From Diatrype stigma (Eukaryota > Ascomycota > Sordariomycetes > Xylariales > Diatrypaceae), in contig JAKJXP020000042.1 in the NCBI GenBank assembly GCA_022225965.2, forward strand, positions 248,001 to 312,000: 64,000 nt of DNA, written 5' to 3'. The number at the start of each line of letters is the position of its first letter. Positions within the stretch are counted from its first letter, which is position 1. This document shows, piece by piece, positions 54,458 through 63,756 of the stretch. The translations under genes were made by a program, and so were the position numbers. The notes beneath the pieces are model-generated. The model searched no databases and had not been told where the DNA came from. It saw only the letters and a list, made by a program, of their open reading frames with translations.

Positions 54458-55202
54458 GAAGAGCGAGAGCGAGGATATGTTGTTGTTGATGATCAATGAC
54501 ACTGTATATATGTGGTTTCCTACGTTTTTAGATGTATGTTGTATCCTTCTATCTGGCGGATATACACGAGGTCGGTATTTGGTGTGCCCCGAAAAACGTG
54601 GGAGTGGGATATATCCAAGAAAAGGAGGAAAAGGGAAAAGGGAGGGTTTGAATAGTCATGGCGTTAAAGAGAGGCATACAAAATCGGCGAAAACTTGAGT
54701 TCAAAAGTTAGAATTAGATTCGTCTACATAACATTATCGTGCTTCAAAAAAATAGATATAGAGAGACGTGGGTTGAGAAGAACGGCAGTGATGATATGGC
54801 GACCTATGTGTGACTTCAGGGGTTCAACCAACACTGTCGGCACACGTCGACAAGAGCGGTGGATCCATTTATGGATGCTGCATTAAGTAAACTACCAGTC
54901 AGTGCCTAGGTAGTGATGTAACGAAGGGTTTTGGAGCCAATATCTCTGAATGATACATGGACTGTCGCATTCAGGGGGTCACAGATAGGGATGGATTCGG
55001 ATACAGATTTTGTCATACAGAGGACAAGAAGTGATCTTTTCGTAGTCTAAGGAGCCGAAGAGCTCTATATAAGTATACAGTGTGCCAAGCCACTACCTAG
55101 GTGCCGATCACCTGGTTATGTAATCCAAAGCTCTCCTATTGTAGCCCCTAGCCCCTATATTGCGACACATTGCCTAGTTAGGTGTATTCCTAGAATCCCA
55201 TA
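54458..55202. other. Spacer, convergent 3' region
   Basis: About 745 bp between converging genes. AT-rich and untranslated-type, with CTACCTAGGTGCC-like repeats near 54905 and 55092. No gene seen. Confidence 0.5.
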
Positions 55203-58393: not shown

Positions 58394-59694
58394 TTATACA
58401 ATTCCGTGCTGACCACTTTTCCAAGTCCCTAACGACCTCGGCTCAGTAGTTCTAACAATCTCGGTATGTGTAACTATGCCCGGGCTGTGATCGAATTGCC
58501 GGTTAGTCATATTGGAACCAGCCGCTGTAACTGACCCAAACTCGCCTTGCCAAGGCGCTCCGTTGCCCGGAAGTACCCTTGATGATAGCGAACTCTCCTT
58601 CGCGGGATTATATAATTCTATCTCGTTGTTGGTTGTCTTAGTACCTGCCCGATCAGAAGAGAGAAGGGTCCATTTGTGGGAAAGCGTTGAGTGTAGAAGA
58701 GATACGAGTCCATCGCGTCCTTTTCCTAGTGCAGGGCCTAATGTTGGCATACAGCACACAATCATGGCAACATTGGCTTCGATCTCCGACCATAGAATGA
58801 AAAGCGTGAAATCCGCGATAAAGTCGGGATTCGCCTCTTGCTGATAGGACGTCACGAGGTAGACAAACATGCGTGCTATACCCGCACCGATTGTGCTATA
58901 CAAAAATTAGGACCTTAAGTATAACGGGATATTGCTAAGGAGTGACTGACAACAAACCAACCATGAAGATACTGGTTACGCCGAGCTTCTTCCTCATCGG
59001 CATACGAAGCTTCCAGATCAGAGGGACCGGCATGAACATGATTATAAAATCCGTAAATAAGTCCGTTGCCGTAAAAGCAGTGAGCATATCAAGCGTATTC
59101 ACGCATTCGGTTAGGAAGAAGGCAATAGGGGCCCAATTCCAATCCCACCGCGTCCCGCATTGAAACAGAGTCGAAAAGAAAAAGGCGATGGACCAAGCGC
59201 TTATGACACCAATCATGACCCAGCAGAGGGCCACGAACAACCTAGCTCGACTGAAGATACGCTTCCAGAGGAAGAGAAGCGAGAGCTTGATCAATCCGAA
59301 CGCTATCTTCTCGGTTGTCTGAAAGGCATACTTGTACTTTTGAGCCAAGTGCTCAAGTTCCGTCGTTACGGGCCAGTTATCCACAACTGGAGAATGACCA
59401 GTAATCGCTCCCTGGATAGTGCCACCAAGGAAGATTCCATTCAGTGCAAGTACGAAGACCTAGCGAGTTGTCAGAGTCACCTCAATTCTTTTTTTCCCAA
59501 ACATGTGTAGAACATGTCGTGCTCACGAATGCCCACAGAGCTAGCCAATCATCTGTGCCAAATCCAACCCCAACTAGACTCCTGGCATAGAACCTGGATA
59601 CAACTGCGATTGTCGTCATCAAGGAGAAAATAGAGGCCATAACAATGAGCCCAGTCTGATCATTGGCTTGCCGCAATTGCATAGACTTAGCCAT
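58394..59694 (-). CDS. Rhodopsin-like integral membrane protein (fungal seven-TM family), 392 aa
   Basis: Exons 59694..59527, 59459..58951 and 58895..58394. The start is ATG at 59694 (MAKSMQLRQAND); the frame is open upstream, but nothing there looks conserved. About seven hydrophobic helices are seen, beginning GLIVMASIFSLMTTIAVVSRFYARSL. The family loop GFGTDDWLALWAFVFVLAL carries the typical DDW, then come KIAFGLIKLSLLFLWKRIF, FVALCWVMIGVISAWSIAFF, FFLTECVNTLDMLTAFTATDLFTDFIIMFMPVPLIWKL and an IEANVAMIVCCMPTLGP final helix. A hydrophilic cytosolic tail of about 100 residues follows. This architecture is that of the large fungal rhodopsin-domain (PTH11-related) group, often found next to secondary-metabolite genes. 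Ligand and role are unknown. The second intron uses donor GTCAGT. Confidence 0.87.
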
Positions 59695-60198: not shown

Positions 60199-61041
60199 AT
60201 GGTCTCATATCCTGAGAGCGAAGAGCATTACGGCCTGCTCACTGACGATGGAGCGGCCGGAGACCTGGAGGAGAAACATCAGTCTCGAGTGACGACCTCC
60301 CCTTGTACGTGGAAAACCCACAAAGTCCTTATTTTGCTTTTTTCAATTTCTATCATTACCAACATACTGTTGATTGTTGATATTATCCATTCGACCACGA
60401 CGGCCGATCCGCCGTCGACGTACGCAAACCTCCGACGCACCCGCGAAGAGCCCTACGTGCTCGTGACCCAATACAGCTCGGACAACGAAACTCTCCAGGA
60501 CCAGCTCTGGTACGATATAAACGTCGATGCCGCAGTTGTCGCGCTCTCCGACGAATGGGCGGCCGGGCACGACCTTCGCACCGCACAGCGGTTCCCCTGG
60601 GACCAGACGAAAGGGATATACATCCTCCACGGCTACCACAACCTGCACTGCCTCAAGATCATTTACATCTCCCTGTCCGAGTACAGACGAGACGCTCCGC
60701 AAACCCGTTCGTGGCACCACATCAGCCACTGCCTAGACGCCTTGAGGCGGCAGGTCCTGTGTGATGCCGACGACACGCCGCGGGCCACGGACCGTCGGGC
60801 AGAAGTGGTGAGCGGGCTTCTGCAACATCGCAGATGCCGCCGCTGGGAGGACCTGGAGGATTTTGCGCGTCGTCACACAGGTTGCTACAAGCGGCCTGAG
60901 AATCCGGAGTCAGGTTCAACATCTATTATTGAAAGGTTCAAGCATTGCCCGCCTGGCAGTGAATATGTCGTCACGGACGATTATGTGCCCCCTGATGAGT
61001 TCTTAGTAGGGCTACCAGCAGAATCTTTAGAAGATCACTGA
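60199..61041 (+). CDS. UstYa-family (DUF3328) oxidase, 280 aa
   Basis: Single exon. A short acidic cytosolic N-terminus, including a YGLL motif, is followed by one transmembrane helix (residues about 43-65, VLILLFSISIITNILLIVDII) and a lumenal or extracytosolic domain. Both diagnostic copper or metal-type HxxHC motifs are present: HNLHC (residues 147-151, in GYHNLHCLKIIY) and HISHC (174-178, in WHHISHCLDALRRQVLCDADDTP). UstYa-like proteins such as UstYa, UstYb, PhomYc and their relatives catalyse oxidative ring closures on fungal ribosomal peptides (ustiloxin, phomopsin, asperipin) and on cyclochlorotine. The gene lies 474 bp from the end of a Kex2-type repeat precursor, converging on it, so a role in modifying that peptide is inferred. 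The tail is unusually long and basic (RRCRRWEDLEDFARRHTG). Confidence 0.9.
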   Translation: MVSYPESEEHYGLLTDDGAAGDLEEKHQSRVTTSPCTWKTHKVLILLFSISIITNILLIVDIIHSTTTADPPSTYANLRRTREEPYVLVTQYSSDNETLQDQLWYDINVDAAVVALSDEWAAGHDLRTAQRFPWDQTKGIYILHGYHNLHCLKIIYISLSEYRRDAPQTRSWHHISHCLDALRRQVLCDADDTPRATDRRAEVVSGLLQHRRCRRWEDLEDFARRHTGCYKRPENPESGSTSIIERFKHCPPGSEYVVTDDYVPPDEFLVGLPAESLEDH

Positions 61042-61514
61042 GGATCAGACCGAGCCTTGTCGTCGGATGTTGGTACAACATCAATGTATCGGGATTGACT
61101 GCGGGAACAGACAAACAATTGTACAAGTAGGCTTCTTTAGGTATCGTGTAGAACGTTTATATGCTTGAATTCTATGTCCCTAGGAATTACTTGATTCACC
61201 TTATCGTGCACCTTACTGGATCCCTCATCCCATCTATTGGAACACGTTCTGTAAAAACCAAAGATCTAAAGTACCCATATTGATTACCAATAGAGAGCTG
61301 TAGAGAATATTGATGTGTATCAATGTCAATCAAATGAGTGTCTTACTCTGGCATACCCTTCGGTTGTTACTGCCTCCAGATCACCTATAACTATTGTTTT
61401 GGTTGTGTGTATATCAATCTTGGTGCCCCCTATCATGAACCTGGTTATAACGACCGCTATCACGACATCCACCTCACGAAAACTAAAGGACTCAGCCCAT
61501 AACTAACTTCTCAT
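61042..61514. other. Convergent spacer between UstYa gene and peptide precursor
   Basis: 473 bp of AT-rich, untranslated-type sequence. The frame at 61315-61506 has no recognisable motif, and no further KR-containing repeat was found here. Confidence 0.5.
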
Positions 61515-61771
61515 TCAATTCTTGAAGCCTTCCGAGATATCTGTGTGGACATCCTCACGCTTGAACGCGTCTGCCACGTCAATGTGAGCCTCCTCACGCT
61601 TGAAGGCATCTGCTACGTCAATGCTCTCCTGAACTGCTACCCCTGCCGAAGTTAGTTTGGCACATAATACAAAACTATGCATTCGGACCGCAACTCACGA
61701 GGACCGGGGAGCGCATCAGCCATCGCGGCTGCCCCAAGAATGACAGCAGTGAGTGTGGCTAAAGACCGCAT
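61515..61771 (-). CDS. Secreted repeat-peptide precursor with Kex2 sites (dikaritin/KEP-type RiPP precursor), 66 aa
   Basis: Two exons, 61771..61699 and 61642..61515. The 56-nt intron has donor GTGAGT, a CTAAC branch and acceptor GCAG, giving 67 codons including TGA. Residues 1-20 are a good signal peptide (MRSLATLTAVILGAAAMADA). After LPGPRVAVQ come three imperfect repeats: ESIDVADAFKR (61628-61596), EEAHIDVADAFKR (61595-61557) and EDVHTDISEGFKN (61556-61518). The first two end in Lys-Arg, the Kex2 protease site, and the last ends at the C-terminus. Signal peptide plus KR-delimited repeats plus flanking UstYa genes is the standard layout of fungal dikaritin precursors. The core is probably the residues just before KR, such as DVADAF. 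There is no tyrosine, so any cross-link would have to use Phe or another residue. This reading comes entirely from sequence pattern; no homolog was searched. Confidence 0.82.
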
Positions 61772-62908
61772 TTTTGAGAGCCTTTCTTATGATGAATGTA
61801 GATAAGAGTTGTGTAGGTAGTGAATCAATGTTATGAAAACGATATAGGTGAGAGGATGACCGACCGCCTGGCGGAGCTTGTCACATTTATCCAAAAACTC
61901 CCTCCCCCCTTTAGGTCAAGGTCTCTCGAGGTGGTTGGTGTTCCTACTGTGTTACCTCACTGCCGTATCACTGATTAAAGGGGAATCTGACTAAGGCCGC
62001 AGCTGCCGGCATGCATCTTCGGGGAAGTGTCACAAGGCTGTTAAGGGTACCTCATTCCGGGAGTACCCGAAGGCGAATAGACAGGTCTGATGTAATCCAT
62101 CGCCACACCCCCTCACCGAAGTTGTAGTGCGTTTCCATGCAGAGACGTCGAGAAATGCATTCTGTGATGGTATAGTGATAAGTAGTGTATACTGTTACTA
62201 TTGGCTCTTGTTCGCTGCCACCTACATAATGGAGGGACGGGACATGTATTGTCGTGGGGGGCTGTGTTCACCGAAGACATGACCTCCTATTCTGAACCCT
62301 GTTTGCCGCTCGCATTGGAATCATGCAAGTGTTGGACCTACTCTGCAACCCCCTGTCACAAGGGAAGACTGCCGAGCACTGTTCGTAGCAGGATTTACAG
62401 GCAGGATAATGGAACACAAGACTATTGGACCATGATGGGACGCAAGGTTGCAGCATAACTACCTCGGGGTTAGGATGGTCAGCAGCCACCAGTGGCCCAT
62501 AGTGTAAGCTTACCCTTAAAAGCTGTATTAGATATAAACGAGTCACTTTATATTACTACGTTTTGCATGACGGAACAAGTACTTACTGGTGGTTTCTGGG
62601 TGGTACATTATTGGTACCCCTTTCAGAAGCCTAAATTCGACCCGGAGTATGTACAATCCCCTTATTATATGCAGGATGCTTCCACGCAGGGGTGTGGTTA
62701 TGAACACTAATAACCCGAACTCTATAGTTTTTATTGCCGATGTGAAAGCGAGGCTGCGTACTTGTGGTGGGAGCTTTCCCATGACCCGAGTTTCCTCTCT
62801 CCTTATGCATACTTCCTTGAACTACCTTTCATATAGAAATGGAAGCAGATTCCACAGGAAATTACGAACAGCGTTATCTTATAGTTCGTGGAAGCATACA
62901 CGCCCCAC
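61772..62908. other. Divergent spacer between precursor and second UstYa gene
   Basis: 1.1 kb. A weak TATA-like CCTATATC lies about 70 bp upstream of the precursor start (61841-61848, minus strand). The open frames at 62201-62458 and 62492-62710 have no recognisable motif. The stretch should hold promoters for both flanking cluster genes. Confidence 0.45.
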
Positions 62909-63756
62909 ATGATGTTCCTCAGAGAGAGTTCCAAGAAAGACTCCTATGAGCCACTTTCTAATAAAGTGGAAGATGACAGTTCCCAGGCATCCATTGGCGA
63001 AACACCTAGACCTTGGAGACCGGAAGCAACGACCTGGGTTCACTCTCGAAACCTAGCAATTGTAACATGGGCTGTTATCTCCGCCGTGGTTGGATTTATC
63101 ACTGGAATGCTTCTCATGAGGAGCATCTTGAACACCACAGGTAGACATTCGTCTGAACATGGAGCATCCCATATACAGCTCCCCACCATTCTACGTGATT
63201 TTGTCTACTCTTCACCCTTTTCTCGAGAACCCCCACAAGGCGAGGCATCAGGGGCAGCATCCGAACCAATCTGGGATGCATTGGTACCCAGTGAGTTGCA
63301 ATGACCACCTACACCAATCTGCTTGATCCATAGCAAAGGCCAGCTTCCACTGACAAGTAAGTAGACGGTCTAGGATACTTTCAAGATGATAATATTGCGC
63401 CGCACGTCTCTATACCGACTGTTATCCACCAATTACACTGTCTATACATCATACGGCGTAGCTTTTATTCTCGGTCCCAAGACCTTCAGGAGTTCGACTT
63501 CGGCAAAAATCGCACCTTGCACGTCTCTCACTGCTTTGACTATCTCCAGCAAGGCCTGACTTGCTCATCAGATACTACGATCGAGCCCGCTGTTAACGTT
63601 TCTGATCCAAATGGGTTCCTCGGCAGCGGCTTCTTGCGGGAATGCAGTGACTACGATACTTTGAAGCAGTTCCTGGAGGAGCGGAGGGTGTTCAATGCCA
63701 CCGGATTCCTAGCACATGGGCTTCATAATGGCCACGTGCATCTAGATATCAGTTGA
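62909..63756 (+). CDS. UstYa-family (DUF3328) oxidase, 260 aa, second copy
   Basis: Three exons: 62909..63290, 63339..63356 (18 nt) and 63374..63756, phase consistent. The first intron has donor GTGAGT and the second, only 17 nt between exons, is below normal intron size. An alternative is one intron from 63291 to 63373 that omits the 18-nt piece; both options keep phase and I favour the single intron. The protein starts MMFLRESSKKDSYEPLS, has one transmembrane helix (LAIVTWAVISAVVGFITGMLL), then WDALVP. The last exon gives RYFQDDNIAPHVSIPTVIHQ, the first motif HQLHC and the second HVSHC, separated by about 31 residues, and then CSSDTTIEPAVN. These are the defining UstYa features. It diverges from the peptide precursor and forms the right side of the putative RiPP locus. 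Residue count is 254 if the 18-nt piece is skipped. Confidence 0.87.

Follow-up and report, generated by a model that had tools for sequence, protein, structure and literature searches.

Two UstYa genes flank a short repeat precursor

We analysed a 64,000-nucleotide stretch of the Diatrype stigma genome (the window; positions 248001-312000 of contig C42, one of the 224 contigs of a 48.98-Mb genome) and also read the 20 kb past its end. Between positions 60199 and 63756 of the window, a 66-residue secreted precursor with a Kex2-type repeat lies between two genes of the UstYa (DUF3328) family. The gene models, family membership, catalytic motifs, Kex2-type-site repeat and layout are established at the sequence level, and together they probably describe a small dikaritin-type locus for a ribosomally synthesized and post-translationally modified peptide (RiPP).

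UstYa gene 1 (60199-61041, + strand) is a single exon with one open frame of 280 residues and matches the Pfam profile PF11807 (UstYa/DUF3328; curated cut-off 25 bits) with 70.7 bits (E 2e-19). UstYa gene 2 (62909-63756, + strand) comprises exons 62909-63290 and 63362 (or 63365)-63756, encoding 258 or 257 residues. Exon 2 matches PF11807 with 72.3 bits (E 6.8e-20), and exon 1 alone gave no UstYa match in the Pfam profile search. The intron (GTGAGT..AG) spans 71 or 74 nt, with the frame kept by either acceptor. Each protein has a single strong N-terminal hydrophobic stretch in the Kyte-Doolittle profile, at about residues 45-63 in gene 1 and 51-69 in gene 2, and two HxxHC motifs. The pairs are HNLHC/HISHC in gene 1 (at 147 and 174) and HQLHC/HVSHC in gene 2, spaced by 22 and 26 residues, respectively. 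An earlier note, made from the letters alone, had placed both intervals in DUF3328/UstYa and had given each product a transmembrane helix and paired HxxHC motifs; profile, hydropathy and motif checks agree, and for the second gene they add two exons and an intron that the note did not mention. By profile and motif, both precursor-flanking genes belong to the UstYa family, and by analogy their products would carry out copper-dependent oxidation. Two genes over the PF11807 cut-off, each with paired HxxHC motifs and one helix, support a dikaritin-type locus.

No UstYa relative of the gene 1 product was found by sequence among solved structures. Its weak matches there (GM-CSF, E 0.0024 and worse; one methyltransferase, E 0.65) were taken as noise, and a single-sequence predicted structure with a predicted local distance difference test (pLDDT) score of 38 was too poor and was discarded. 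The 3′ end of UstYa gene 1 and the stretch downstream of it (window 60972-61099) recur as a 128-bp, 84% identical copy at C42:201497-201624 (L046 4497-4624). This stray tail, the sole second copy found in the genome, lies about 107 kb off on the same contig, beside the end of a P450 gene; a fungal-rhodopsin gene (C42:211269-211914, + strand) is located about 10 kb from it.

The precursor gene (61515-61771, − strand) is read in two exons. Exon 1 (61771-61699, 73 nt) encodes the signal peptide and exon 2 (61642-61515) encodes the cores. The predicted intron between them (61643-61698, − strand, 56 nt, phase 1) follows straight after the signal-peptide exon and carries canonical GTGAGT, CTAAC and CAG signals. 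Gaps of 473 bp and 1137 bp separate the precursor from UstYa genes 1 and 2, respectively. The signal peptide passes a rule-of-thumb hydropathy and −3/−1 test, which was used rather than SignalP. What follows divides into the segments SIDVADAF-KR, EEAHIDVADAF-KR and EDVHTDISEGFKN, i.e., two near-identical 13-residue repeats that end in KR and a degenerate third, which has diverged and ends the protein without KR. Over the ten codons of IDVADAFKRE, repeats 1 and 2 differ at three sites, all synonymous; such a pattern in the core suggests constraint, though three changes are few. The 66 residues include three Phe and two His, with no Tyr and no Trp. The precursor matched no Pfam family, and six core strings did not occur in the literature searched.

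Coordinates, spliced translation and signal-peptide test thus bear out the secreted KR-repeat precursor between two genes that the earlier note had described, and its 56-nt intron holds as a gene model, the splicing itself being predicted. The note's expectation that standard gene calling would miss so short and intron-split a precursor is plausible. An unspliced precursor starting at an inner ATG is possible, but that reading disregards the canonical intron and was rejected. A third match of the precursor in the genome, a weak one on contig C33 (E 0.23), was read as DNA only and likewise set aside; C33 has no UstYa match.

The repeat scores above random sequence

To judge the repeat against chance, we searched 244 kb (the window, the 20 kb past its end and 160 kb surrounding other UstYa genes) for 10-residue stretches that resemble each other and precede KR or RR. 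The precursor scores 34; the maximum over 20 order-1 Markov re-draws of this sequence is 21. All other matches of at least 30 fall in stretches around other UstYa genes. The top score in the remainder of the window is 29, in an arginine-rich frame, and none of the 60 matches listed (of 66) lies in the 20 kb past the window. A second scan looked for a signal-peptide-like exon that ends in phase 1 at an intron and is followed by at least two dibasic sites. The precursor is the only candidate in the 64-kb window, and there is none in the next 20 kb, in a scan that is incomplete, having missed the precursor on contig C19 described below. In each of L030, L035 and L038 the scan gave one further candidate, whose repeat similarity is low. 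A signal-peptide-like exon, a canonical intron, KR repeats that score above every random set and core differences that are synonymous only support the assignment to a dikaritin-type locus.

Secreted repeat precursors recur at UstYa loci of the same genome

A UstYa profile search of the genome gave 23 matches, which merge into 15 loci. The precursor survey comprised the 13 loci covered over at least 10 kb, leaving out C79 and C82 (less than 4 kb each), and found a secreted repeat precursor at seven, the window included. The start positions of the six other precursors were partly read by eye. On C19 (L040 3555-4029, − strand) there are eight repeats of the type DSDSEAIPFYP-KR, on C85 (L041 7149-7666, + strand) repeats of the AYNPAVYVMEKR type, and on C41 (L033 1867-2188, + strand) the repeats ATEFDPDLLLKR and ATEFDPDVFLKR. 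The C34 precursor (L030 6835-7254, − strand) has four TRGGTIY units with RK or RR between them, and that of C154 (L034 7011-7703, − strand) long repeats ending in ARR. The C119 precursor (L039 7019-7519, + strand) consists of 16 YAIR units; its units lack dibasic separators, so as read it is strictly speaking no Kex2-type precursor. The cores are widely different across the six, and each may mark a separate RiPP locus.

Five of the seven precursors have a predicted phase-1 intron directly after the signal peptide, of 56 nt in the window, 73 nt in C19, 75 nt in C34, 67 nt in C41 and 83 nt in C85; the remaining two (C119 and C154) continue without an intron. A leader intron that recurs in the same phase within one genome lends independent support to the gene model of the window precursor, and precursors at seven of 13 UstYa loci, five of them with this intron, also support the dikaritin-type reading. 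Phase-1 introns near signal-peptide ends are common in secreted proteins, so the common position need not mean shared descent.

The C41 locus (L032, L033) resembles the window in its ALPxP after the signal peptide, its phase-1 intron (67 nt) and its few repeats, in repeated cores without Tyr, and in having a UstYa pair and a receptor-like gene close by. It differs in having another core, one further segment that contains Tyr and a precursor outside the UstYa pair. Its receptor-like gene is below the family cut-off, and the paralogues listed for the window's UstYa genes do not include those of C41.

Several observations weigh against a working dikaritin-type locus. No precursor was found at six of the 13 surveyed UstYa loci (C31, C45, C57, C62, C74 and C77). 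UstYa gene 1 has its nearest paralogue in the genome on C31 (39% over 108 residues), and gene 2 on C77, C45 and C57 (35 to 43%); no precursor was found at any of these four loci, and this lowers our confidence. With two KR sites and a third repeat that has degenerated, the precursor is at or under the three-repeat threshold of published surveys and might be decaying. The cores hold no Tyr, though known dikaritin closures use it. Finally, a Pfam scan of 24 pieces from the window and 8 from the next 20 kb, which covers short exons less than exhaustively, turned up no methyltransferase, other tailoring enzyme, transporter or peptidase close by, apart from a carboxylesterase on the left and, on the right, a P450 and a dehydrogenase 14 kb and 18 kb away.

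Some of these points could also mean a vestigial precursor, or one that is a chance frame, with the two UstYa enzymes working on a different peptide or on a non-ribosomal product. The repeats are few and degenerating, no precursor was found at six of 13 UstYa loci, the region has been rearranged, as judged from the stray copy of the UstYa gene 1 end, and DUF3328 proteins also act outside RiPPs (excerpt of PMC12048977). Against it stand canonical splice signals, a signal-peptide-like exon, core differences that are synonymous only and an exon layout shared with four other precursors of the genome. We consider this explanation unlikely and favour a dikaritin-type locus.

Proposed pathway and chemistry

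For such a locus we infer a course that runs from expression and splicing through cleavage, copper binding and the reaction, with any ring, to secretion and role. The 66-residue precursor would enter the secretory pathway via its signal peptide. Kex2 would cleave after both KR pairs and a Kex1-type carboxypeptidase would trim the ends, releasing peptides like EEAHIDVADAF. Anchored in the membrane, the two UstYa proteins would face the lumen, where their paired HxxHC motifs would hold a two-copper centre, and would oxidise side chains of the core. With no Tyr in the cores and no tyrosinase match on the contig, the most probable targets would be Ile, Asp and Val of IDVADAF or its last Phe, by hydroxylation, desaturation or cross-linking. 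The calculated MH+ of the unmodified peptides is 1216.548 for EEAHIDVADAF, 887.426 for HIDVADAF, 750.367 for IDVADAF, 1363.674 for VAVQESIDVADAF and 1490.676 for EDVHTDISEGFKN.

Parts of this course have counterparts in the literature. A DUF3328 gene is most often the immediate neighbour of a repeat precursor, and DUF3328 proteins are required for ring closure in ustiloxins, asperipin-2a and phomopsins (excerpts of PMC7329392). In phomopsins, dehydro-Ile, dehydro-Asp and dehydro-Pro are attributed to three DUF3328 enzymes (excerpt of PMC10880069), and other DUF3328 proteins have been linked to hydroxylation, chlorination and transacylation (excerpt of PMC12048977). CctR is a two-copper, O2-using, membrane-anchored DUF3328 enzyme whose HxxHC residues are required and whose working domain is placed in the organelle lumen (PMC12435403). 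The window enzymes share with this cyclochlorotine hydroxylase an N-terminal membrane helix and the HxxHC(x)nHxxHC arrangement, and the Cys positions of UstYa gene 1 (188, 213, 229 and 250) resemble those of CctR (190, 213, 229 and 240) as numbers compared rather than aligned. In contrast, the substrate of CctR is a non-ribosomal peptide, and the window enzymes are known here from their genes alone.

The locus agrees with the dikaritins (ustiloxin, phomopsin, asperipin-2a, epichloecyclin and victorin) in its secreted precursor, its Kex2-type sites and its UstYa/DUF3328 neighbours, a comparison of features made with the precursors unaligned. It differs from them in cores without Tyr, in having no tyrosinase match on the contig and in having only two KR-ended repeats. 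A newer definition of the class asks for a DUF3328 gene beside a secreted precursor (excerpt of PMC12048977), and here two UstYa genes flank one. The older five-gene definition includes a tyrosinase as well as a methyltransferase, transporter or peptidase; none of the 22 tyrosinase matches of the genome lies on C42, and none of the others was found among the pieces scanned against Pfam. Tyr is described as mandatory in ustiloxin, phomopsin and asperipin-2a cores, according to excerpts of the literature, and is absent from all 66 residues here. Closure through a Tyr ether is unlikely because the cores lack Tyr and the contig has no tyrosinase match. The earlier note, which had proposed a fungal cyclic-peptide pathway by analogy with such products, was right in the class; with neither Tyr nor Trp in the precursor, the Tyr-ether closure known from that class probably does not carry over, and the cyclic product and its role stay putative.

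The precursor can also be set beside the KEX2-processed repeat proteins (KEPs), of which 1758 precursor genes have been counted with a nearby DUF3328 gene (excerpt of PMC7329392). It shares with them a signal peptide, repeats of at least eight residues, dibasic separators and an adjoining DUF3328 gene; it differs in having two full repeats and a degenerate one, where the surveys took a threshold of at least three (excerpts of PMC6339444 and PMC7329392). Tyr occurs in 65.6% of the repeats near DUF3328 genes (excerpt of PMC7329392), so that about a third have none and, by the same excerpt, a Tyr-free core is a minority case, not a new one. If our reading is right, a class that had only five reported products by 2022 (excerpt of PMC10512285) gains a minimal member free of Tyr, in which the action of UstYa enzymes can be tested on a core that offers no Tyr for linkage. 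The locus would also show how a precursor can escape published search thresholds when its full repeats number fewer than three and its signal peptide is followed at once by an intron.

A Pth11-like receptor gene lies head-to-head with UstYa gene 1

A Pth11-like receptor gene of the fungal rhodopsin family (58394-59694, − strand; start codon read by eye) is oriented head-to-head with UstYa gene 1, the presumed start codons lying about 0.5 kb apart. Its middle exon matches PF20684 (E 7.9e-29), its last exon falls just under the cut-off (E 5e-6) and its first piece has no match. The three-gene RiPP core of the earlier note holds for the UstYa pair, the intron-split secreted precursor and their layout, and six further precursors in the genome speak for it; this fourth gene it omitted. 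The receptor belongs to the locus only if the receptor reading considered below is right.

We asked how often such receptors accompany UstYa genes. The genome family searches scored the best candidates of each family (receptors 150 of 207, P450 92 of 316, Zn-cluster 150 of 188), and the resulting counts are lower bounds. The fungal-rhodopsin family has 155 matches in the genome, and those listed merge into 126 genes. A listed receptor lies within 5 kb at at least five of the 15 UstYa loci (C31, C42, C57, C74 and C82), compared with 0.43 expected under uniform placement (Poisson P 9e-5). The pairing was first noticed at the window and was hence also counted with the window left out, which gives at least four of 14 loci (P 9e-4). 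Four of the five pairs are head-to-head and that of C57 is tail-to-tail; genes between the partners are possible at the four loci outside the window. On C41, a receptor-like gene (L032 6948-7978, − strand) is head-to-head with the UstYa gene, but at E 0.015 it is under the Pfam cut-off and was left out of the count.

As controls, none of the 91 listed P450 genes and none of the 13 listed tyrosinase genes lies within 5 kb of any of the 15 UstYa loci. The same holds for the 129 listed Zn-cluster matches, the nearest of which is 5.6 kb away, with the six matches on UstYa contigs picked by eye. Since only 0.3 to 0.45 would be expected in each case, the zero counts mean that there is no excess and do not speak for avoidance. 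Receptors cluster somewhat with P450 genes too, a listed one lying within 5 kb at seven of 91 P450 loci. The odds of a receptor are six times higher at UstYa than at P450 loci (Fisher P 0.013, or 0.038 without the window).

Since the receptors are not mutual closest paralogues, the data do not support duplication of a single cassette as the source of the pairing. When paralogues are ranked against the window receptor (itself first), with one exon as the query, the C31 receptor comes 7th, that of C74 10th and that of C57 23rd, and the C82 receptor is absent from the 53 listed. Shared fast-evolving regions might explain the pairing. It would also fit a recurrent design of UstYa gene plus Pth11-like receptor, in which the modified peptide is a ligand or regulator of the receptor encoded head-to-head. 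A Trichoderma RiPP cluster, cluster 55, includes a PTH11-type G-protein-coupled receptor (GPCR) gene (excerpt of PMC7099791), and among the papers listed by a separate literature search none had a UstYa or DUF3328 term together with PTH11. The ligand proposal is weakened because the receptor-paired loci outside the window show no precursor: among the five listed, the window alone has one, none was found at C31, C57 and C74, and C82 was read over 3.4 kb. We regard this design as quite improbable and the pairing, seen in one genome, as a lead rather than a result. Most fungal GPCRs have no known ligand (excerpt of PMC13308352), and if the pairing holds in other fungi it would supply candidate ligands for the large Pth11-like receptor family.

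A receptor gene next door also fits another product, a linear, unmodified, pheromone-like signal peptide that is processed by Kex2 while the UstYa neighbours act on something else. Cores without Tyr would suit such a peptide, and 78% of repeat precursors have no DUF3328 gene nearby (excerpt of PMC7329392). The window precursor, however, has UstYa genes on both sides, whereas all but three of the putative mating factors and pheromones in the same excerpt have no DUF3328 gene nearby, and the D. stigma genome repeatedly puts repeat precursors near UstYa genes. A linear signal is very unlikely in our estimation, and oxidation of the core by the flanking UstYa proteins is the preferred reading.

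Surrounding genes and dispersed repeats

To the left of the locus lie housekeeping genes, a carboxylesterase gene and the receptor gene. To the right are three pieces without a family, a Myb-like protein and a DUF924 protein, and a P450 and a short-chain dehydrogenase follow about 14 kb and 18 kb past UstYa gene 2, respectively. Beside the end of the carboxylesterase gene, window positions 54963-55150 belong to a dispersed repeat about 175-200 bp long, of which the genome has at least 39 more copies (the best 40 of 104 candidates were scored, window copy included). Similar low-complexity frames (..LPPCVLPPQ..RPRFDSWTR..) occur at two distant places, L025 8718-8978 and L043 1472-1717, and, judged by eye, resemble copies of a different short dispersed repeat that is perhaps derived from a tRNA.

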